A stretch of 64,000 nucleotides of DNA from Asanoa siamensis. Its GTDB lineage: Bacteria > Actinomycetota > Actinomycetes > Mycobacteriales > Micromonosporaceae. The stretch spans positions 1 to 64,000 of the forward strand of contig NZ_BONE01000004.1 in the NCBI RefSeq assembly GCF_016862555.1, in the 5' to 3' direction. Below, in pieces: positions 569 through 9,643 of the stretch. The position numbers and the translations under genes were made by a program. How positions within the stretch are numbered: position 1 is the first letter of the stretch; every line of letters begins with the position of its first letter. The notes below the pieces were generated by a model, which saw only the letters and a list, made by a program, of their open reading frames with translations, had not been told where the DNA came from and ran no database searches.

Positions 569-1174
569 TCAGGCGACCCGTTGGCCACCAGAAGACCGGG
601 CGCGGGCGCGCGCACCCCGCCGTCGCAGCACCCAGACGAAGAACAGCACCAACCCGACCAGGAAGATCAGGATCAGCAGGGGGAGTACGAGCGCCACGAC
701 CGACATCACCACGCTGGCGACGTCCTCGAGGGTGCTCGCGACCGGTGCGCCGACGCCGCCCGTACCCACGTTGATCACAGGTCTTGCCGTTGCTTTGATG
801 CCGTGCACGCCGAGCGCCAGCAGCACGCCGACGGCGACCGGCACCCACTGGTGCGAGCCGAAGAAGCTGCCCGGGTCGGAGACCGTCGCGGTGCTGGTGC
901 CGGCGCCGAACGCCAGCCCGCCCGCGGTCGGCCGGACGACCGTCTGCACCACGTCGTTGGCCGAGTCGAGCACGGGCACCTTGTCGGCGACCACCTCGAT
1001 CGCCAGCAGCCCGGACAGGATCAGGATCACCCAGCCGTTGCCGAGCCAACTCCACCCGGCGGGCAGCGCGACGACGTCGGTGTAGCGGGACAACAACCCG
1101 ATCGCGAGCAACGGGATGTACGCGTTGAGGCCGGCCGAGGTCGCGAGGCCCGCGCCGGTGAGGGCTTCCAGCAC
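569..1174 (-). CDS. DUF4126 family integral membrane protein
   Basis: 201 residues from GTG (1172-1174). The N-terminus EALTGAGLATSAGLNAYIPL is the usual opening of DUF4126 proteins and decides the start; the frame is open 11 codons further upstream. Hydrophobic segments lie at about 15-30, 47-65, 107-125 and 155-178, followed by a very basic C-terminal tail (RRRGARARARS). The Gly/Ser/Thr-rich loop around GTSTATVSDPGS is typical of the family. Role unknown; a small inner-membrane protein is all the sequence supports. It is divergent from nucS with only 44 bases between the two starts, so the two may share a promoter region. Confidence 0.8.
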   Translation of the reverse strand: MLEALTGAGLATSAGLNAYIPLLAIGLLSRYTDVVALPAGWSWLGNGWVILILSGLLAIEVVADKVPVLDSANDVVQTVVRPTAGGLAFGAGTSTATVSDPGSFFGSHQWVPVAVGVLLALGVHGIKATARPVINVGTGGVGAPVASTLEDVASVVMSVVALVLPLLILIFLVGLVLFFVWVLRRRGARARARSSGGQRVA

Positions 1175-1218: not shown

Positions 1219-1878
1219 GTGCGTCTCGTCATCGCTCGGTGCTCGGTCGACTACGTCGGCCGGCTCTCCGCCCACCTGCCCCCGGCCACCCGGTTGCTGA
1301 TGGTCAAGGCCGACGGCTCCGTCTCGGTGCACGCCGACGACCGTGCCTACAAGCCGCTCAACTGGATGAGCCCGCCCTGTCGCATCCAGGAGGAGCCCGG
1401 CGTCTGGCGGGTGGTCAACAAGGCCGGCGAGGAGCTGCGGATCACCCTGGAGGAGATCTTCCAGGACACGTCGTACGACCTCGGCGTCGATCCCGGCCTC
1501 GTCAAGGACGGCGTCGAGGCGCACCTGCAGGAGTTGCTGGCCGCCAACCCGACCACGTTCGGCGAGGGCTACACGCTGGTCCGGCGGGAGTACATGACCG
1601 CCATCGGGCCCGTCGACCTGCTCTACAAGGACGCCGCCGGTGGGTCGGTCGCGGTCGAGGTCAAGCGGCGCGGCGAGATCGACGGCGTGGAGCAGCTCAC
1701 TCGTTATCTCGAACTGATGAACCGCGATCCGCTGCTCGCCCCGGTCGCCGGCGTGTTCGCCGCGCAGGAGATCAAACCGCAGGCCCGGGTGCTCGCCGAG
1801 GACCGCGGCATCCGGTGCGTGGTGGTCGACTACGACAAGCTCCGCGGGATCGAGCGGGACGAGCTGACGTTGTTCTGA
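1219..1878 (+). CDS. nucS: Mismatch-specific endonuclease NucS/EndoMS
   Basis: 219 residues from GTG, full length for the family. NucS cuts both strands around certain base mismatches and is the core of the non-canonical mismatch-repair pathway of actinobacteria and some archaea, replacing MutS/MutL. The C-terminal RecB-like PD-(D/E)xK nuclease core is visible: D133 in GPVDLLY, E147 and K149 in [11 protein letters not shown], then Gln159 in EQLTRYLE. The N-terminal half carries the DNA-binding beta domain with the conserved YKPLNWM. The C-terminus ends in ELTLF, matching the sliding-clamp-binding tail described for actinobacterial NucS. It looks monocistronic, 37 bases ahead of the 1916 operon. 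Confidence 0.95.
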
Positions 1879-1915: not shown

Positions 1916-3022
1916 GTGACCGATGTCGAGATCGGACGGTTCGTACGCTCGGCGACCGCCGCCCACCGCGCCGGCCGTGACCTGCGGGACGCACTGGGCG
2001 GCGCGGGGAGCGACGCGGCCGCCGAGCGGTTGGCGGCGTCGATCGAGATGGGCCTGGCCGACCTCGGCCGGGCCGAGACGGCCTGGTTCGGCCCGGAGGG
2101 CGCCGAGCAACGGGTACGGACCGACCCGGACGCGGTCCTCGCGGTGGTGGCCGGCCAGCTCCAGCTCGGCGAGGTGGCCCTGGCCGCGGGCGGCGCCGTG
2201 GGAGAAACCCCGGCACCCACCACCACGGACGCCGGCGCCGCGCTCGACCGTGCCCTGGCCGATCTGCGCGCGACCACCAGCACCCTCGAGGACCCCGGCC
2301 CTACCCGCGGCAGCGCCCGGGTCACCTCGCGCGACGTCCCCGAGGCCGTGGCCAGCCTGCGCGGGGCGCTCGGCACCACCCTGGACGCGATCGCGACCGG
2401 CACCGCCGACGTCGTCGCCGGCCCGCTGAAGACCGTGGCGGGCAAGGCTCCCCAGCAGCTCAAGGAAGCCTGGGAGAAGGTCAGCAAGCAGCTCTACCTC
2501 GACAACATCGGCGGCCGCCTGGTCCGGCTCGGCCTGCGCGCGCTCGCCGCCGCCCTCGGCGCTCTGCGCCGGGTCGTCGATCTCGACTGGCTCACCCGCG
2601 CCCGCGACCACCTGGTCACCCTCGCCGACCGCACGGTCGACACGGGCGTCGGCGCCGCGCTGCTCGGCGACGTGATCGGCGCCGAGCGCACCCGGACCGA
2701 GACGGAGGCCCGGCTGGCCGGCGCCGGGCTCGTGCTCGGCCGGCTCGACAGCGGTTCGGAGGCGCTGGCCGCCCTCGCCGCGCGGTTCGACAGCGTGATC
2801 GGCAAGCTTGCCCTGGCCCAGGCGGCGGTGGGCGGCATCCTGCTCGTCCAGGGCCACTTCGGTTTCGCCGTACCCTGGCTGCCCCTCGCCCTGCTCGGTG
2901 CCGAGCTGTTGATCGGCGCCGTCGCGGTGGCGCTCGCGATCGACTACGTCGACACCACCGTGCACGTCGGCGCGGTCCGGGGTGTCCGGCTGATCGTCGA
3001 CGACGCCGTGCGGGTCGCATGA
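1916..3022 (+). CDS. Membrane-anchored helical protein, gene 1 of metallopeptidase/TPR operon
   Basis: 368 residues from GTG; no family recognised. The first 290 residues are Ala/Leu/Arg-rich and look mostly helical and soluble, with no signal peptide. Two hydrophobic segments follow near the C-terminus, about 298-313 and 317-342, then a short tail DYVDTTVHVGAVRGVRLIVD. It is therefore probably C-terminally anchored, with the large N-terminal part in the cytoplasm (inferred). Its stop overlaps the start of the next gene (ATGA at 3019-3022), giving translational coupling to the HELGH peptidase. It could be the membrane partner or the substrate of that peptidase. Confidence 0.75.
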   Translation: MTDVEIGRFVRSATAAHRAGRDLRDALGGAGSDAAAERLAASIEMGLADLGRAETAWFGPEGAEQRVRTDPDAVLAVVAGQLQLGEVALAAGGAVGETPAPTTTDAGAALDRALADLRATTSTLEDPGPTRGSARVTSRDVPEAVASLRGALGTTLDAIATGTADVVAGPLKTVAGKAPQQLKEAWEKVSKQLYLDNIGGRLVRLGLRALAAALGALRRVVDLDWLTRARDHLVTLADRTVDTGVGAALLGDVIGAERTRTETEARLAGAGLVLGRLDSGSEALAALAARFDSVIGKLALAQAAVGGILLVQGHFGFAVPWLPLALLGAELLIGAVAVALAIDYVDTTVHVGAVRGVRLIVDDAVRVA

Positions 3023-4095
3023 GCGAGCGCGACTGGTTCGCGACCCAGGTGGCGCAGGCGACCCTCGACCTGGCCCGGGTGGGCAAGGCGCTGGTGGCCG
3101 AGGAGCGCCTGGGCAACACCACGGCAGCCGTACGCGACGACTTCGTCCTGCTGCTGCGCGCCCGCGCCCGTGAGGTCGAGGCGGTGGCCGGCACCGGCTG
3201 GGCCGGGCTCGAGAGGGTGCGGCGCGACCGGGTGGCGCCGGTGCTGGCCGCCGCCCTCGCCGTGCTGGAGGGCATCCAGCTCCGCGGCCACCCGTTCTTC
3301 CGGCCGACCCGGATCGCCGCCGAGACGCTGCTCGACGCGCTCGTCGACGCCGGCGGCATCGGGCGCACGGTGCTGCTCTCGGTCGGTGACAGCGACCGCT
3401 TCGAGCGGCTGGCGGGCCTGGTGCGGACGCGCTTCCCGGACGCGGGCGTCTGGGGGCTGCCGATCCTGGTGCACGAGCTGGGCCACCTGGTCGCCGACGC
3501 GCTGCCCGCGCCCGGCGACAAGGACGCCCGCCCCGTGCTGTTCCACCTGGACCGGTCCGACGACCCGCTGCTGGGCGAGCTGTTCGCCGACGTGTTCGCG
3601 ACCTACGCGCTCGGGCCGGCGTACCCGGTCGCGGTGATGACGCTGCGCGCCCGGCCCGACCGGTTCGACGACGCGACCGCCACCCACCCTTCCTGGGACC
3701 GGCGCGTGTGGACGATGGTGGCGGCCCTGCGGGCACAGGCGGACCTCGCCGCCGACCCGCTCACGGCCGCCGGCCACAGGAGGGCGGCCGACGAGGTCGC
3801 CCGGCGGTGGAAAGCGCTCAACCCCGTGACGACCGAGCCGCCCAAGCGCGCCGAGGAGGACGCCCGCGGGCTGGTCGAGTTGCTCGACCACAACGCGCCG
3901 GCCCGGCTGGGCTTCGACCCGCTGATCGGCCTCGCCCCGCTGGTCGACGCGCTCGACCGCGGGCAGCCGCCGGCGGGCGATCCGGTCGCGATCGTCGCGG
4001 CCGCCTGGCGCTGGCGGCTGGCGCACCCCGACGGGCCGGTCGCCCGGGTCGACACGATCGCGCTGCGAGCCCTCGCGGGGGGTGCCGATGCTTGA
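3019..4095 (+). CDS. M48-like zinc metallopeptidase (HELGH), gene 2 of operon
   Basis: 358 residues. It carries a complete gluzincin-type active site: HELGH at 152-156 (two zinc-ligand histidines and the catalytic Glu), then E187 in GELFADVFATY, matching the ExxADxxA signature that supplies the third ligand in M48-like peptidases, and HPSWDRR at 223-229, resembling the HPxxxxRI element of M48 enzymes. There is no signal peptide or clear membrane span, so it is probably cytosolic, perhaps held at the membrane by the coupled gene 1 product. The N-terminal 140 residues are helical. The next gene encodes a homologue with a broken active site. Substrate unknown; protease activity is inferred from intact residues. 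Confidence 0.8.
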   Translation: MSERDWFATQVAQATLDLARVGKALVAEERLGNTTAAVRDDFVLLLRARAREVEAVAGTGWAGLERVRRDRVAPVLAAALAVLEGIQLRGHPFFRPTRIAAETLLDALVDAGGIGRTVLLSVGDSDRFERLAGLVRTRFPDAGVWGLPILVHELGHLVADALPAPGDKDARPVLFHLDRSDDPLLGELFADVFATYALGPAYPVAVMTLRARPDRFDDATATHPSWDRRVWTMVAALRAQADLAADPLTAAGHRRAADEVARRWKALNPVTTEPPKRAEEDARGLVELLDHNAPARLGFDPLIGLAPLVDALDRGQPPAGDPVAIVAAAWRWRLAHPDGPVARVDTIALRALAGGADA

Positions 4096-5428
4096 CCTGC
4101 TCGCGGTGCGCCTGGCCGAGCTGCGCGACGACGTCGACAAGGTGAAGCGGGTCGCGGACCTCGCCGAGAGCCGGCACAGCCGCCTGGACGGCCTGCGCGG
4201 CGTACGCAAGGACGTCTGGGACGGCCTGCTGGAGGCGCGGCGGATGATCCTGGAGATCCGCGGCGACGCGCCGGAGCTGGAGCGGCTGGGCGACCTCGAC
4301 GACCTGCTGATCGACCTGGATCGCAAGATGTCGCGGGCCGGCGTGATGCTGGACCAGCTCGACGGCTCGATGATCCGGCTGATGAACACCGACACGATGA
4401 GCGCGCGGTGCGGCGCGATGCTGGACGAGATCGACAAGCTGGAGGGCGCGCTGCGGGCCGGCACGCTGGACCGCCCCGCGGCGTGGGCCGCGGTCGACGA
4501 GCTGACCGACACGACCGGCCGGCGGCTGTTCGCCGACTACGTCGACCTGCTCGGCGGGCTGACCCTGCGCGACACGGGCCTCGATGACCGGGTCAGCGAG
4601 CTGACGGACCGCCTGCTCGACGAGCTGACCGTGCCGCTGCGGGCGGTGCCGGCCCGCCCCGCCGACCTCACCGGCGACCACGCGCTGGGCGACCTCGTGA
4701 TGCTCTGGTTCCCGGAGTGGACGATCTGGGACGTGCCGCTCTTCGGTCACGAGGCCGGGCTGGCCTGGTGCCGCACGTCGCCGCTGGCCGGCAACCTGCT
4801 GGGCGACGACCCGCCGGCGCGGCGGCGCACCCTGGCCGCGGACGCCTACGCCGCCTACGCGCTCGGCCCGGCGTACGCGTGCGCGGTGCTCCTGCTGCGG
4901 ATGCGCGCGGATTCGTCCGATGTGGACCGTGCGTACGTCATCCTGGCCGTGCTGCGGTCGATGGCCGTCGACGGGATGGCCGCCGCGGTGGTCGACCTGG
5001 TCGAGCAGTGCTGGCAGGGCGCGATCAGCGAGCGCGGCGGTGACCCGGCCCCGGCGCGGCGGGCCGAGCTGGACGCGTTCGCGTCGACCGCGTACGCCAC
5101 GCTGCGCGACATCAGCTCCTTCCGCGGCTTCGACGCGATCCAGTGGGACGCCGAGGCGGCGGAGCCCTACGCCGCACTCGACCGGAGTCAGGAAAGAGGC
5201 AGCGGCGGAGCCAGCGTGCGGGGTCTGCTCAACGCCGCCTGGGCGGCGCGGCTGACGCTCGCCGACCCGCACGACGCGCACGCGCTGCGCGAGGTCGCCG
5301 ACGCGGCCCGCGCGCTGCTGGGCCCGCGCAAGGCGATGCTGCCGCGGGAGCGCCACGCGGGGCGGCCGGCCCAGGCGCGCCCGTCGAGCCGGACCGGTGA
5401 CTACCGCCTTCCCTACCAGGGCCGGTGA
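4082..5428 (+). CDS. Degenerate metallopeptidase homologue (pseudo-enzyme), gene 3 of operon
   Basis: 448 residues from GTG 4082, or 446 from ATG 4088, overlapping the previous gene. It is homologous to its neighbour: FPEWTIWDVPLFGHEAG aligns with FPDAGVWGLPILVHELG, and AADAYAAYALGPAY with FADVFATYALGPAY. The active site is damaged. HELGH has become HEAGL (223-227), losing the second zinc-ligand His, and the third-ligand Glu is Thr250. It should bind zinc poorly or not at all. The N-terminal 185 residues are a helical, charged region partly predicted as coiled coil (about 10-125). A regulatory or adaptor role beside the active copy is inferred. It is coupled to the TPR gene through GTGA at 5425-5428. 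Confidence 0.78.
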   Translation: MPMLDLLAVRLAELRDDVDKVKRVADLAESRHSRLDGLRGVRKDVWDGLLEARRMILEIRGDAPELERLGDLDDLLIDLDRKMSRAGVMLDQLDGSMIRLMNTDTMSARCGAMLDEIDKLEGALRAGTLDRPAAWAAVDELTDTTGRRLFADYVDLLGGLTLRDTGLDDRVSELTDRLLDELTVPLRAVPARPADLTGDHALGDLVMLWFPEWTIWDVPLFGHEAGLAWCRTSPLAGNLLGDDPPARRRTLAADAYAAYALGPAYACAVLLLRMRADSSDVDRAYVILAVLRSMAVDGMAAAVVDLVEQCWQGAISERGGDPAPARRAELDAFASTAYATLRDISSFRGFDAIQWDAEAAEPYAALDRSQERGSGGASVRGLLNAAWAARLTLADPHDAHALREVADAARALLGPRKAMLPRERHAGRPAQARPSSRTGDYRLPYQGR

Positions 5429-8166
5429 CCGCGATGACGGACGATCGGCTGAGGCGGGCCTGGGCGGCTTATCGCGCGGGCGACCTCGCGACGGCACGGC
5501 AGCGCGCGGAGGAGGCGGGCCGCGCCGACGACCCGGCCGTCCAGGGCGCTGCCTTCACGCTCCGGGGCCTGTGCCGGGTCCGCCTCGACAGCGCCGACGA
5601 GGACCTCTTCGCCCAGGCGGTGCGACGGTTCGAGGCCACGCCGCGGCCCGATCGCCGGTTCCTGGCCGAGTACGGCATCGCGTTGACCCTGAGCGGCCGC
5701 TTCGACGAGGCGGAACCGGTGCTACGCCGGGCCGTGACCCTCGGCGCCGCCGGCCCCGACGTCCTCCGTTGCCTGGCCCGCGTGCTGTCCCGGCAGGGAG
5801 ACGACGCCGGCGCCGGCCGCGCGATCGCCGCCGCGGCGCGGGCGTACCCGGCCGACTGGCTGGTCGCCCACGACCGCGCCGAGCTGCTCACCGGCCGCGC
5901 CGAGCTGCTCACCGACCGGCCGCCGGTCGCCGCGGACGCCTGGGCGGTCGCGGGTGCGCTGAGCCTGGCGGCCGGGCGGGGCGACGTCGCGCTGGCGGCC
6001 TACTCCCGCGCGCTGGAGCTCACCCCGGACGACCCGCACCTGCTGGCCGAGAAGGCCCGGGCCTGCGCGTTCGTCGGTGACGTCGAGGAGCTGTTCGCGA
6101 CCTTGGGCCGCTCGGTGCCGATGAAGGCCTCCGAGCTCGTTCCGATGCTGTTCGAGGCCTCCGAGCCCCTCGTACGCGCGGCGCCGGACGTCGCCCGGGC
6201 GCTGCTCGAGCGGACGATCGAGGTCGAGCCCGAGCACGCGGGAGCGCACGCCCTGTTGGGCATCGCCTGCCGCGATCTCGGTGACGACGCCGCCGCCGAC
6301 CGGGCGTTCGACGAGGCGGTGCGGCTGGACCCGGACGACGCCCGCGCCCTGCTCGCCCGCGGTCAGCTCCGCCTGGCCCGCGGCCAGCACGACGAGGCGA
6401 TCGCCGACCTGGAGCTGGCGGCGGCCGCCCAGCCGCGGGCCGGGCTGATCCGGCTGACCGCGGCGGAGGCCTACTACATCCGCGCCGAGGACACCGCGGC
6501 GGACGCCGACGTCGAGCGGGCGCTGGCCCACCTGCGGGTGGCGCTGGAGATCAAGCCCGGTGACGCCGCCGCGCTCCGGCTGGTCGGCTACGTGACGCGG
6601 CTGCGGCGCGACGCCGACCCCGCGACGACCGAGACCGCGCTGCGCGCGGCACGGGCGGCCAATCCCGACGATCCGAGCCTCGCCTACTACCTGGGGCTCC
6701 TGCTGTTCGACCAGGGCGCCTACGAGGAGGCGCTCGGCTGCGCGGAGCAGGCCGTGGCGGGCCTGCCCGACTCCCCGCTCGCCCGGCTGCTCCGCGGTCA
6801 GCTTCTGCGCACCACCGGCGATCCCGAGCGGGCGCTGCCCGACCTCGAGGCCGCGGCCGAGGGCCAGCCTGATCTCCCCGAGGCGCATGCCGCGTTGGGC
6901 GAGGCGTACCGGATCGTCGGGCGGTTCGACGCCGCGCTGGCCGAGCTGACCACGGCCGTCGAGGCCCAACCCGACGACGGCTGGTCGCTGGCCAGCCGCG
7001 GCGCGACCCGGCACGCCCTGGGCGACGTCACCGGCGCACTCGCCGACCTGCGCCGCTCGCTGGGCCGGGGCGCCGAGCCGGGCTTCGCCGTGTGGTGGCT
7101 GTGCGAGGCGCTGCGCGGCAGCGTCGACGAGGACGCGCTCGTCGACGAGATCGGCGCGGCCGCCGCGCTCCACCTCGACGAACCGGACGTGCTGGAGATC
7201 TACTCGGACGTGCTGCACGGCGCCGGCCGCTACGGGGAGGCGGTCGACGCGGCCGAACGCGGGCTCATGGTGCGACCCGACCACGTGGGCCTGCTCCGCT
7301 CGCTGGGCTGGGCCCGGCTGGCGCTCGGTGACCGGGCGCGGGCGGTCGAGACGCTCGAGCGGGCGGCGGCCCTGCACGGTGACGTGACGACGCTGACCGA
7401 CCTGGCGACCATGGTCGCGCGCGGCGACGACGCGGCGGAGGCCCTGCGCACCATCGACCGTGGGCTCGCCGTCGCCCGCACGTCCGCGCTGCTCCGGTTG
7501 CGCGCCGAGGTGTTCGCGGGGCTCGCGGACTGGGCGGCGGCGCGGGAGGCGGCGGCCGAGGCGCTCGTGGTCGAGCCCGTCGACCCGTGGGCGCACTGGG
7601 AGTTCGGCCGGGCGCTGCGCTACCTCGACGGCGGCCTCCCCGACGAGGCGCTGGCCGCGTTCGAGGCGATGCGCGAGCGGGAGCCGGACAACCCGATGGG
7701 CCCGCAGGGCATCGGCGACGTGCACTGGACGGTCGGGCGGCGGGCCGAGGCGGAGGTCGCCTACCGGGCGGCGATCGCGCTCTACGAGAGCTTCGGCGAG
7801 GACGAGGCGTGGACCCGGCACGGCATCGGCTGGTGCCTGCACCGGCTCGGCCGGTACGCGCCGGCGGCCGAGTCCTACCTGCTGGCGCTGCCGGCCAGCG
7901 ACGAGCGGTCGGCGCTGCTGTTCGACATCGGCCTCAACTGGCTGGCCGCCGGCGAGGAGGTGCGGGCCGCGGACGCGTACGCCCAGGGTTTCGGGGTGTT
8001 GTCGGCGATGCCGCGCACCCGGGTCGCGGGCATGCTGGCGGTCGCGGCCGAGGACCTGCGCGCGTCGGTCGCGCGGGGCGTCGTCGCCGACACGGCTCAG
8101 GTCGCCGACCTGCGCGACCGGTTGGCGAAGGAGACGGCTACCGCGAGCGGCCGTAGATCAGTTTGA
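5425..8166 (+). CDS. Large TPR-repeat protein, gene 4 of operon
   Basis: 913 residues from GTG (ATG at 5434 is an alternative). Nearly the whole chain is tetratricopeptide repeats, roughly 20 copies. Units such as ALLGIACRDLGDDAAADRAF followed by DEAVRLDPDD show the usual G, A and P positions. No enzymatic domain, signal peptide or membrane segment is seen, so it is a cytosolic scaffold, probably holding the peptidase pair or its substrates (inferred). It is the last gene of the operon and overlaps the convergent aldehyde dehydrogenase gene by 29 bases. A 21-base in-frame tandem duplication lies at 5874-5914. Confidence 0.85.
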   Translation: MTAMTDDRLRRAWAAYRAGDLATARQRAEEAGRADDPAVQGAAFTLRGLCRVRLDSADEDLFAQAVRRFEATPRPDRRFLAEYGIALTLSGRFDEAEPVLRRAVTLGAAGPDVLRCLARVLSRQGDDAGAGRAIAAAARAYPADWLVAHDRAELLTGRAELLTDRPPVAADAWAVAGALSLAAGRGDVALAAYSRALELTPDDPHLLAEKARACAFVGDVEELFATLGRSVPMKASELVPMLFEASEPLVRAAPDVARALLERTIEVEPEHAGAHALLGIACRDLGDDAAADRAFDEAVRLDPDDARALLARGQLRLARGQHDEAIADLELAAAAQPRAGLIRLTAAEAYYIRAEDTAADADVERALAHLRVALEIKPGDAAALRLVGYVTRLRRDADPATTETALRAARAANPDDPSLAYYLGLLLFDQGAYEEALGCAEQAVAGLPDSPLARLLRGQLLRTTGDPERALPDLEAAAEGQPDLPEAHAALGEAYRIVGRFDAALAELTTAVEAQPDDGWSLASRGATRHALGDVTGALADLRRSLGRGAEPGFAVWWLCEALRGSVDEDALVDEIGAAAALHLDEPDVLEIYSDVLHGAGRYGEAVDAAERGLMVRPDHVGLLRSLGWARLALGDRARAVETLERAAALHGDVTTLTDLATMVARGDDAAEALRTIDRGLAVARTSALLRLRAEVFAGLADWAAAREAAAEALVVEPVDPWAHWEFGRALRYLDGGLPDEALAAFEAMREREPDNPMGPQGIGDVHWTVGRRAEAEVAYRAAIALYESFGEDEAWTRHGIGWCLHRLGRYAPAAESYLLALPASDERSALLFDIGLNWLAAGEEVRAADAYAQGFGVLSAMPRTRVAGMLAVAAEDLRASVARGVVADTAQVADLRDRLAKETATASGRRSV
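5874..5914 (+). repeat. 21-bp in-frame tandem duplication in the TPR gene
   Basis: The 20 bases CCGCGCCGAGCTGCTCACCG at 5874-5893 recur at 5895-5914, a period of 21 bases. They encode two copies of RAELLT in a row (RAELLTGRAELLTD). This looks like replication slippage within a repeat helix, lengthening the protein by seven residues. Confidence 0.85.
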
Positions 8167-9643
8167 CCGCCTTGACGATCCGGGCGACGTGCGCCGGCGT
8201 GCGCTCGAAGGTCATCGCCTTGAGCGCCGACGGGCCGCGCCGGGTGGTGATGGCCTTGGACCGCGAGAACTCGCGCAGGCCGTCGTCGCCGTGGGTGCGG
8301 CCGAAGCCCGAGTGGCCGACGCCGCCGAACGGCAGCGACGACATGCCGATGAAGGTGATCACCGAGTTGACCGAGGCCATGCCCGTGCGCAGCCGCCGGG
8401 CCGCGGCCACCGCGCGCCGCTTGCCGAAGACCGCGCCACCCAGCCCGTACGCGGTGTCGTTGGCGAGCCGGATCGCCTCGTCGACGTCGGCGACCTTGGT
8501 GACGACCAGCGTCGGCCCGAACGTCTCCTCGCGCACCGCCGCCGAGTCCTCCGGCACGTCGACCAGGATCGTCGGCTTGACGAACGGCGGCTCGACCGCG
8601 TCGCGCCCGCCGAGCACGGCCCGCCCGCCACGCGACAGCGCGTCGTCGATGTGCCGGCGGATGACGTCGATCTGTTTGGGCATCGTGATCGGCCCGATGT
8701 CGTAGCCGTCGCCGTAGCCGACCTCGAGCTTCCCGGCGCGGCGGACCACCTCGGCGACGAACGCGTCGTAGACCGGCGCGACCGCGTAGACCCGCTCGAT
8801 CGCGAGGCAGGTCTGCCCGGCATTGGTCAGCGCGCCCCAGACGCACGCCTCGGCCGCGGCCGCCACGTCGGCGTCGTCGTCGACGATCAGCGCGTCCTTG
8901 CCGCCGGCCTCGATCAGCACGGGCGTCAGCGTCTCGGCGCAGGCGGCCATCACCTTCCGGCCGGTGGCGGTGGAGCCGGTGAAAGCGATCTTGTCGACGC
9001 CGGAGTGGCAGAGCGCGGCACCGACCTCGCCGAGCCCGTGCACGACCTGCAGCACCGGTTGCTCGGGCACGATCTCGGCGAACGTGTCGACGAGCCACTG
9101 GCCCACGGCCGGGGTGTATTCGCTGGGCTTGAGGACGACGGTGTTGCCCGCGGCGAGCGCGTAGGCCACCGAGCCCACCGGCGTGACGACCGGATAGTTC
9201 CACGGCCCGATCACGCCGACGACGCCCATCGGCACGTATTCGAGGTGGGCCGAGAACTCGGCGAGCGCCAGCCGGCCGCGCACCCGACGCGGGCCGAGCA
9301 CCCGGCGGGCGTTGCGGGCGGCCCAGTCGATGTGGTCGATCGCCGAGGCGGTCTCGACGATGGCCTCGGCGACCGGCTTGCCGCCCTCGCGGCTCACCAG
9401 GGCGGCGGCCTCCTCGACCCGCTGGGCGAGCAGGCCGCGCCAGCGCAGCAGCCGGGCGCGCCGGCCGGCGTGACCGAGGGCGACCCACCAGTCGGCGGCG
9501 ACCTGGGCCCGGGCCACGGCGGCGGCCACGTCGTCGGCGTCGGCGACCGGGAACCGGCCGACCTCCTCGCCGGTCGCGGGGTTGGTCGAGACCAACTCGC
9601 CCGACTCGACGACCGGGACACCGGCGGCTCGCGTTGCGGTCAT
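8138..9643 (-). CDS. NAD(P)-dependent aldehyde dehydrogenase
   Basis: 501 residues, the usual length for the ALDH superfamily. Visible landmarks are N149 in GPWNYP, K172 in LKPSE (cofactor ribose contact), FTGST at 221-225, the general base E245 in LIEAGGKD and the catalytic Cys279 in NAGQTC. It oxidises an aldehyde to a carboxylic acid in the cytoplasm; the sequence is closest in flavour to succinate-semialdehyde and broad-range long-chain ALDHs, but the substrate cannot be fixed. It is convergent with the TPR gene. The ATG lies 7 bases from a TAGACT -10 box, so its mRNA may be leaderless. Confidence 0.92.
   Translation of the reverse strand: MTATRAAGVPVVESGELVSTNPATGEEVGRFPVADADDVAAAVARAQVAADWWVALGHAGRRARLLRWRGLLAQRVEEAAALVSREGGKPVAEAIVETASAIDHIDWAARNARRVLGPRRVRGRLALAEFSAHLEYVPMGVVGVIGPWNYPVVTPVGSVAYALAAGNTVVLKPSEYTPAVGQWLVDTFAEIVPEQPVLQVVHGLGEVGAALCHSGVDKIAFTGSTATGRKVMAACAETLTPVLIEAGGKDALIVDDDADVAAAAEACVWGALTNAGQTCLAIERVYAVAPVYDAFVAEVVRRAGKLEVGYGDGYDIGPITMPKQIDVIRRHIDDALSRGGRAVLGGRDAVEPPFVKPTILVDVPEDSAAVREETFGPTLVVTKVADVDEAIRLANDTAYGLGGAVFGKRRAVAAARRLRTGMASVNSVITFIGMSSLPFGGVGHSGFGRTHGDDGLREFSRSKAITTRRGPSALKAMTFERTPAHVARIVKAVKLIYGRSR

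Follow-up and report, generated by a model that had tools for sequence, protein, structure and literature searches.

What might a bacterium gain from keeping a probable peptidase and a dead copy of it side by side, next to a putative membrane protein and a very large tetratricopeptide repeat (TPR) protein? This question is raised by a four-gene cassette at positions 1916 to 8166 of a 64,000-nucleotide stretch of the genome of Asanoa siamensis (contig NZ_BONE01000004.1), called the window below. The reading put forward here, with a probability of roughly 0.55, is that the genes, named A to D, encode a regulated, membrane-docked cytoplasmic peptidase complex in which C would be a dead regulatory subunit. 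The four genes are as follows.

1916..3022, plus strand: gene A, 368 amino acids (aa), with a hydrophobic C-terminal region at ~293-349 (possible hairpin) and a conserved DY(V/I/L)DT...V.G.R end
3019..4095, plus strand: gene B, putative soluble zinc peptidase, with HELGH at 152-156, ELFAD at 187-191 and HPSWDRR at 223-229
4082..5428 (start possibly 4088), plus strand: gene C, inactive paralogue of B (HEAGL, TLAAD, HP lost)
5425..8166, plus strand: gene D, a 913-aa TPR protein and the fastest-evolving member (Pfam TPR_2 2.3e-40 and other TPR models)

The peptidase pair and its partners

The products of B and C are homologous (BLASTP 5e-6; hhalign 99.2%, E 1.4e-19). In a joint alignment of both proteins from seven genomes, every B keeps H152, E153, G155, H156, E187, D191, H223, P224 and R229, and the complete catalytic set is present in none of the seven C proteins. 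In the window, C retains the first histidine and the glutamate of the HExxH motif, the second zinc histidine has become leucine and the glutamate ligand threonine. The original prediction, made from the window alone, that B keeps HELGH, ExxADxxA and HPSWDRR and that its homologue has lost two zinc ligands, is hence confirmed. The four Asanoa C proteins read HEAGL, with T or G in the glutamate position; the C of genome G495 reads YDAGL, with C in that position, and those of G582 and G640 read RR.GK, with L. H223 is gone from all seven C proteins, and G155, D191, Y202 and R229 are kept in all of them. The active and the inactive paralogue are conserved together in 7/7 genomes. Decay of the site has gone further in the more distant lineage, yet the dead copy is still retained there, which argues for a function of C other than catalysis. 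The conserved residues lead us to infer a zinc peptidase in B. Judged by its homology, its co-conservation and the decay of its motifs, C would be a former copy of B that lost catalysis and was retained as a non-catalytic partner.

B resembles peptidase family M48 (PF01435) in having HExxH, ExxAD and HPxxxxR in the same order. HExxH, ExxAD and HP....R, which we take to be the motifs that define M48, agree with the M48 members of the same genome: ExxAD and HP are found at all seven M48 places and HPxxxxR at six. The Pfam model detects these seven places at E<=0.01, and none at 3019-4095. Compared by hhalign with six M48 proteins of its own genome, B reaches 34.8% over only 11 columns, around HExxH or just before it; the Argonaute-linked peptidases described below reach 15.7% against M48, again around HExxH or just before it. 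These low scores show how little a shared HExxH alone contributes. The distance from HExxH to the glutamate also differs, being 30-44 residues in four cassette B proteins and 30-64 in all twelve relatives vs. 46-78 in the six M48 proteins, and B carries an extra conserved GP-A/S-Y motif. Of the earlier label "M48-like", the motif order thus stands as a resemblance; membership of B in the family was dropped for want of a Pfam M48 match and because of the low profile scores. No convincing PDB relative of B was found by sequence.

The four genes had been described as joined by three stop-start overlaps. These are present at 3019-3022 (A/B, 4 nt), 4082-4095 (B/C, 14 nt) and 5425-5428 (C/D, 4 nt), and three related loci (L011, L012 and L014) repeat the 4-nt A/B and C/D overlaps together with a B/C overlap of 8 nt (L011, L012) or 14 nt (L014), given by the start of the C ortholog. 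Other in-frame starts exist for C, and the start at 4088 is a gene-caller prediction. In comparison with the same three loci, substitutions are in excess at the third codon position in all four reading frames, over most of each gene; since the excess falls in exactly these frames, A, B, C and D are all real genes. Pairwise dN/dS among the Asanoa copies ranges from 0.20 to 0.63 over the four genes and is highest for D (0.36-0.63).

The hydrophobic C-terminal region, a possible hairpin, is found in 7/7 A proteins in a Kyte-Doolittle scan, in line with the description of A as a membrane protein. In the same scan, two B proteins and three D proteins showed no transmembrane-like segment. D, rightly called a TPR protein, is the sole member of the cassette with a Pfam match. 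No Pfam, NCBIfam or PADLOC match was obtained for A, B and C at E<=1, the PADLOC models of described anti-phage defence systems included, and D has only weak PADLOC matches (PrimPol 1.9e-5, TPR 2.2e-4 and two weaker ones).

Distribution and history of the cassette

A search of 61 genomes with the B protein found it in 4/6 genomes of the genus Asanoa; in the two further weak matches of this search, G005 and G033, no HExxH protein was present in the stretches read. Two confirmed relatives of B, from Asanoa hainanensis (L011) and A. ishikariensis (L012), are 73% identical (single-protein query, close relatives only). In a profile search, 9/354 Micromonosporaceae genomes hold relatives of B: seven with the cassette (G000, G001, G003, G004, G495, G582 and G640) and two with another type of operon (G552 and G646). 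Only a few candidates (4-10) per genome were scored in the genome searches, so these counts are lower bounds and misses are likely. Wherever a cassette-type B occurs (7/7 genomes), A, B, C and D stand in order, side by side and on one strand. The conserved gene order expected by the original prediction is therefore real, and it holds in three genera with four kinds of surroundings. The loci of the G495, G582 and G640 cassettes are unrelated to that of Asanoa, and their junctions range between a 10-nt overlap and a 33-nt gap (gene-caller prediction).

The cassette of the window is bordered by two genes that do not belong to it.

1219..1878, plus strand: nucS/EndoMS, mismatch endonuclease, upstream neighbour in Asanoa, outside the conserved cassette (Pfam NucS_N 1.1e-30, NucS_C 9.6e-41)
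8138..9643, minus strand: aldehyde dehydrogenase (ALDH), convergent neighbour and downstream border, outside the cassette (Pfam Aldedh 1.7e-130)

A minus-strand upstream gene (open reading frame 1027-2487) and P0001 were rejected, as the phase of the substitutions fits the plus-strand frame 1219-1878, nucS. The ALDH gene is found on the far side of the locus in 6/6 Asanoa genomes (window, L011, L012, L014, L074, L075), and in the window it is overlapped by the 3' end of D. Profile matches to A are found in 9/354 Micromonosporaceae genomes, namely the seven with cassettes and the two Asanoa genomes G002 and G005. A lone A is seen between nucS and ALDH at L074 8548-9567 and L075 2397-3452, where its own 3' end overlaps ALDH. 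The simplest history is that A to D entered Asanoa as a unit and that G002 and G005 afterwards lost B to D, in one event or in two; the inner nodes of a nucS and ALDH tree are weakly supported (0.12, 0.71, 0.89).

Wider searches gave few relatives. The A1 family search matched 18/200 genomes at E<=0.1; those followed were the four Asanoa genomes, G495, G582 and G552, and the remaining 11 matches (E 0.001 to 0.07) were left out of account. Phylum-wide, 396 genomes were searched with A1 and apparently the same 396 with A10. Of the five non-own A1 matches (L016-L020), the four read for HExxH, L016-L019, showed no B-like motif set. The three A10 matches comprise one real relative of the Argonaute-operon type (L100, genome G377) and two rejected candidates: L101, with HEWGH in a protein that lacks the rest of the motif set, and L102, spurious by eye. 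Phage searches with B of the window and with an Argonaute-linked relative gave no match, and scans of IMG/VR with A11 and A13 gave no confirmed relative; an origin from a phage or virus was dropped on these grounds. A plasmid search with P0003 and P0004 also gave no match. BLAST of the G582 B against plasmids found five records, weakly (E 0.001 to 0.08). The link between B and its plasmid relatives rests on the profile comparisons given below.

Relatives in Argonaute and CHAT operons

In these comparisons, B matched peptidases linked to prokaryotic Argonaute (pAgo) at 98.7% (E 3.7e-16, 187 columns) and peptidases linked to CHAT proteins at 97.5%; the two sets matched each other at 97.7%. The score of C against the pAgo-linked set was 92.5%, and a control comparison of B with the unrelated A profile gave 0.1%. 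By these scores, B is homologous to the HExxH peptidases of pAgo and CHAT operons over the catalytic domain.

The pAgo-linked peptidases share with B a common set of HExxH, E..CD, GPAY and HPP...R. Five bacterial plasmids, from Rhizobium, Runella, Spirosoma, Emticicia and a cyanobacterium, have the same order of nuclease, 789-829-aa protein, small protein and peptidase. The first gene encodes a PD-(D/E)XK nuclease in 4/5 of these loci and is unnamed in Emticicia; the peptidase and the small protein of Rhizobium have no Pfam match at E<=1. In haloarchaea, plasmids of Natrinema, Haloplanus, Halorussus, Halobacterium and Halorientalis pair the small protein with the peptidase, as does one of two Halosimplex places; the annotated genes of this two-gene unit overlap in 5/6 cases. 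The second Halosimplex place has no annotation for the peptidase. In 5/6 cases the haloarchaeal peptidase faces a large convergent gene, and in Natrinema the large gene is ~2.9 kb away.

L106 3684-8573, L110 3287-8137, L111 3149-8152, L112 3258-8152, L113 3097-8005: bacterial pAgo-type operons (Rhizobium, three Bacteroidota, cyanobacterium)
L107 5100-6618, L109 5262-6723, L114 6568-8116, L115 6568-8119, L116 6367-7861, L117 6574-8074: haloarchaeal two-gene units

The pAgo or PprPIWI models of PADLOC match 7/7 large proteins scanned (Rhizobium, Runella, Spirosoma, cyanobacterium, Natrinema, Halorussus and Halorientalis; Emticicia, Haloplanus, Halobacterium and Halosimplex were left out). The small protein was rejected as a counterpart of A or C, its profile scoring 0.1% against A and 0.4% against C. 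The relative in the actinobacterial genome G377 (L138 7618-8748) is a counter-example: a PADLOC scan of its six neighbours recognised no pAgo or CHAT. Nearby are a ThiF protein that weakly matches JAB (PADLOC E1-E2) and a gene matching sigma-70 region 4. Genes annotated as ThiF also occur close to the operons of Runella and Spirosoma.

In the second type of operon (G552, G646 and Sinorhizobium), the peptidase is the third gene, after a CHAT gene and that of a very large putative ATPase; in Bradyrhizobium, a copy adjoins two CHAT genes. The large ATPase is, in our reading, STAND-like (the two proteins scanned, with that of G552 left out, match Pfam only below cut-off). The PADLOC model peptidase_U41 matches 2/4 CHAT-linked peptidases, those of Sinorhizobium (4.4e-11) and G552 (1.8e-5).

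L104 8001-9389, L073 8076-9350: CHAT-linked peptidases matching peptidase_U41

The model matched neither the G646 and Bradyrhizobium peptidases nor the four cassette B proteins tested, and the phrase "peptidase U41" was not found in the literature searched. Altogether, relatives were seen in Actinomycetota, rhizobia, Bacteroidota, a cyanobacterium and haloarchaea, in pAgo, CHAT and ThiF contexts. No pAgo or CHAT operon partner was found at the cassette itself: A to D and ALDH matched none, the flanks of the other cassettes having been read by eye only. At somewhat less than even odds, B may belong to a zinc-peptidase superfamily that Pfam and NCBIfam do not name and that occurs repeatedly in immune-type operons; the Micromonosporaceae cassette would be the version that stands by itself, with a dead paralogue and a TPR protein serving as the control layer at the membrane instead of the ATPase or Argonaute.

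Proposed mechanism, alternatives and known systems

In the proposed complex, B would be the putative zinc peptidase that does the cleavage, and C, itself without catalysis, would position, inhibit or gate it. The cassette may be a protease switch under its own control. D could serve as a TPR platform, sensing a partner protein or holding the complex together. A may anchor the complex at the membrane through its hydrophobic C-terminal region, or be the substrate of B. The trigger may be stress or an invader; conflict-type signalling is the better guess, drawn by analogy from the contexts of the distant relatives.

Several observations weigh against such a complex. The window C has a weak segment at 285-304 that passes the transmembrane-like threshold (the G582 C has none), and the window A has a further weak hydrophobic segment at 73-91. 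TPR proteins have many roles. The cassette is located between nucS and ALDH and not among recognised defence genes. Finally, A occurs without B, C and D in 2/6 Asanoa genomes (G002 and G005), i.e., in 2/9 of the genomes that bear it; its persistence there indicates that A is independent of the other three and argues against an obligate unit. Whether the four families are found apart had been named as a check on the original prediction: in the searches run, this was not so for B and C and was partly so for A (C and D were not searched on their own).

The best surviving alternative, still an unlikely one, is an anti-invader or cell-death module, in which D, with C, would sense the invader and B would be released and cleave A or a host protein, and A would permeabilise the membrane. 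It draws on the relatives of B in pAgo-type plasmid loci (5/5 bacterial loci read, with pAgo models matching in the 4/5 scanned), on the CHAT gene, large putative ATPase and peptidase of G552, G646 and Sinorhizobium and the CHAT genes beside the Bradyrhizobium copy, and on the patchy distribution of the cassette and the fast evolution of D; a precedent exists in the recurrent acquisition of proteases by immune systems, according to the accessible part of PMC12799240. However, the cassette has neither recognised defence genes beside it nor an NTPase or nuclease gene of its own, and of the four products PADLOC matches D alone, weakly (best 1.9e-5). Survival of A alone in two genomes argues against A being toxic by itself, and neither pAgo nor CHAT was recognised next to the G377 relative. 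The "conflict system" of the original prediction is an indirect link, through the pAgo and CHAT operons in which distant relatives of B are found and the cassettes are not. Since the immune-type contexts belong to those relatives, an anti-invader role of the cassette may be taken as a lead, not as a result.

More doubtful still is a role in envelope quality control or maturation, in which B, C and D would process A or further proteins of the membrane in the manner of M48 peptidases. The hydrophobic region of all seven A proteins and the M48-like order HExxH..ExxAD..HPxxxxR would fit; on the other hand, the two B proteins tested have no transmembrane-like segment, and presence in 7/354 Micromonosporaceae genomes (a lower bound) is unusual for housekeeping. 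A NucS-linked regulator of DNA damage or mutation rate, co-transcribed with nucS, is very improbable: A starts 26-37 bp past nucS in 6/6 Asanoa genomes (37 bp in the window), but nucS of G495 is on a different contig from the cassette, the ~20 kb surrounding each of the G495, G582 and G640 cassettes gave no nucS match, and six other Micromonosporaceae nucS loci gave no BLASTP match to A-D. A fixed link between the cassette and nucS, seen in Asanoa only, was therefore dropped as a general feature. The nucS gene has another companion, a DUF4126 gene, divergent from it in the window (569-1174, minus strand), a homologue of which stands beside nucS in all six gene-called loci from other Micromonosporaceae.

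No described system with the make-up of A-B-C-D was recognised in the literature searched, from which most subscription journals are outside coverage, and no description of a protease step in Argonaute or CHAT operons was found there. In two Argonaute surveys (PMC6299218, PMC2743648), a term search found none of the protease terms in the accessible text. A Streptomyces synteny paper (PMC13118837), as far as its accessible part goes, reports M48 metallopeptidase and TPR proteins, in separate clusters. The cassette is a compact system: its peptidase and dead copy are kept together in distant relatives, which makes the role of a pseudoprotease directly testable. Beyond this, the cassette leads to a peptidase family seen repeatedly in both Argonaute and CHAT operons, the scanned members of which have no Pfam or NCBIfam match above cut-off. 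If B and these relatives act alike, the cassette would be a simple model for proteolysis in both types of operon.

Compared with these operons, the cassette differs in its partners. The pAgo-type peptidases are accompanied by a pAgo, a Cas4-like nuclease and a small protein, without any recognised TPR gene, membrane gene or further copy of the peptidase beside them; in the CHAT operons, a CHAT protein and a putative ATPase of 1556-1729 aa or similar stand in place of A, C and D. A further comparison is with proteases that bacterial immune systems have taken up as modules: in the accessible part of PMC12799240, trypsin-like or caspase proteases activate a pro-nuclease, whereas the cassette has a putative metallopeptidase, a dead paralogue and no nuclease gene. 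The likeness to those modules lies in a peptidase that recurs beside unrelated immune cores.

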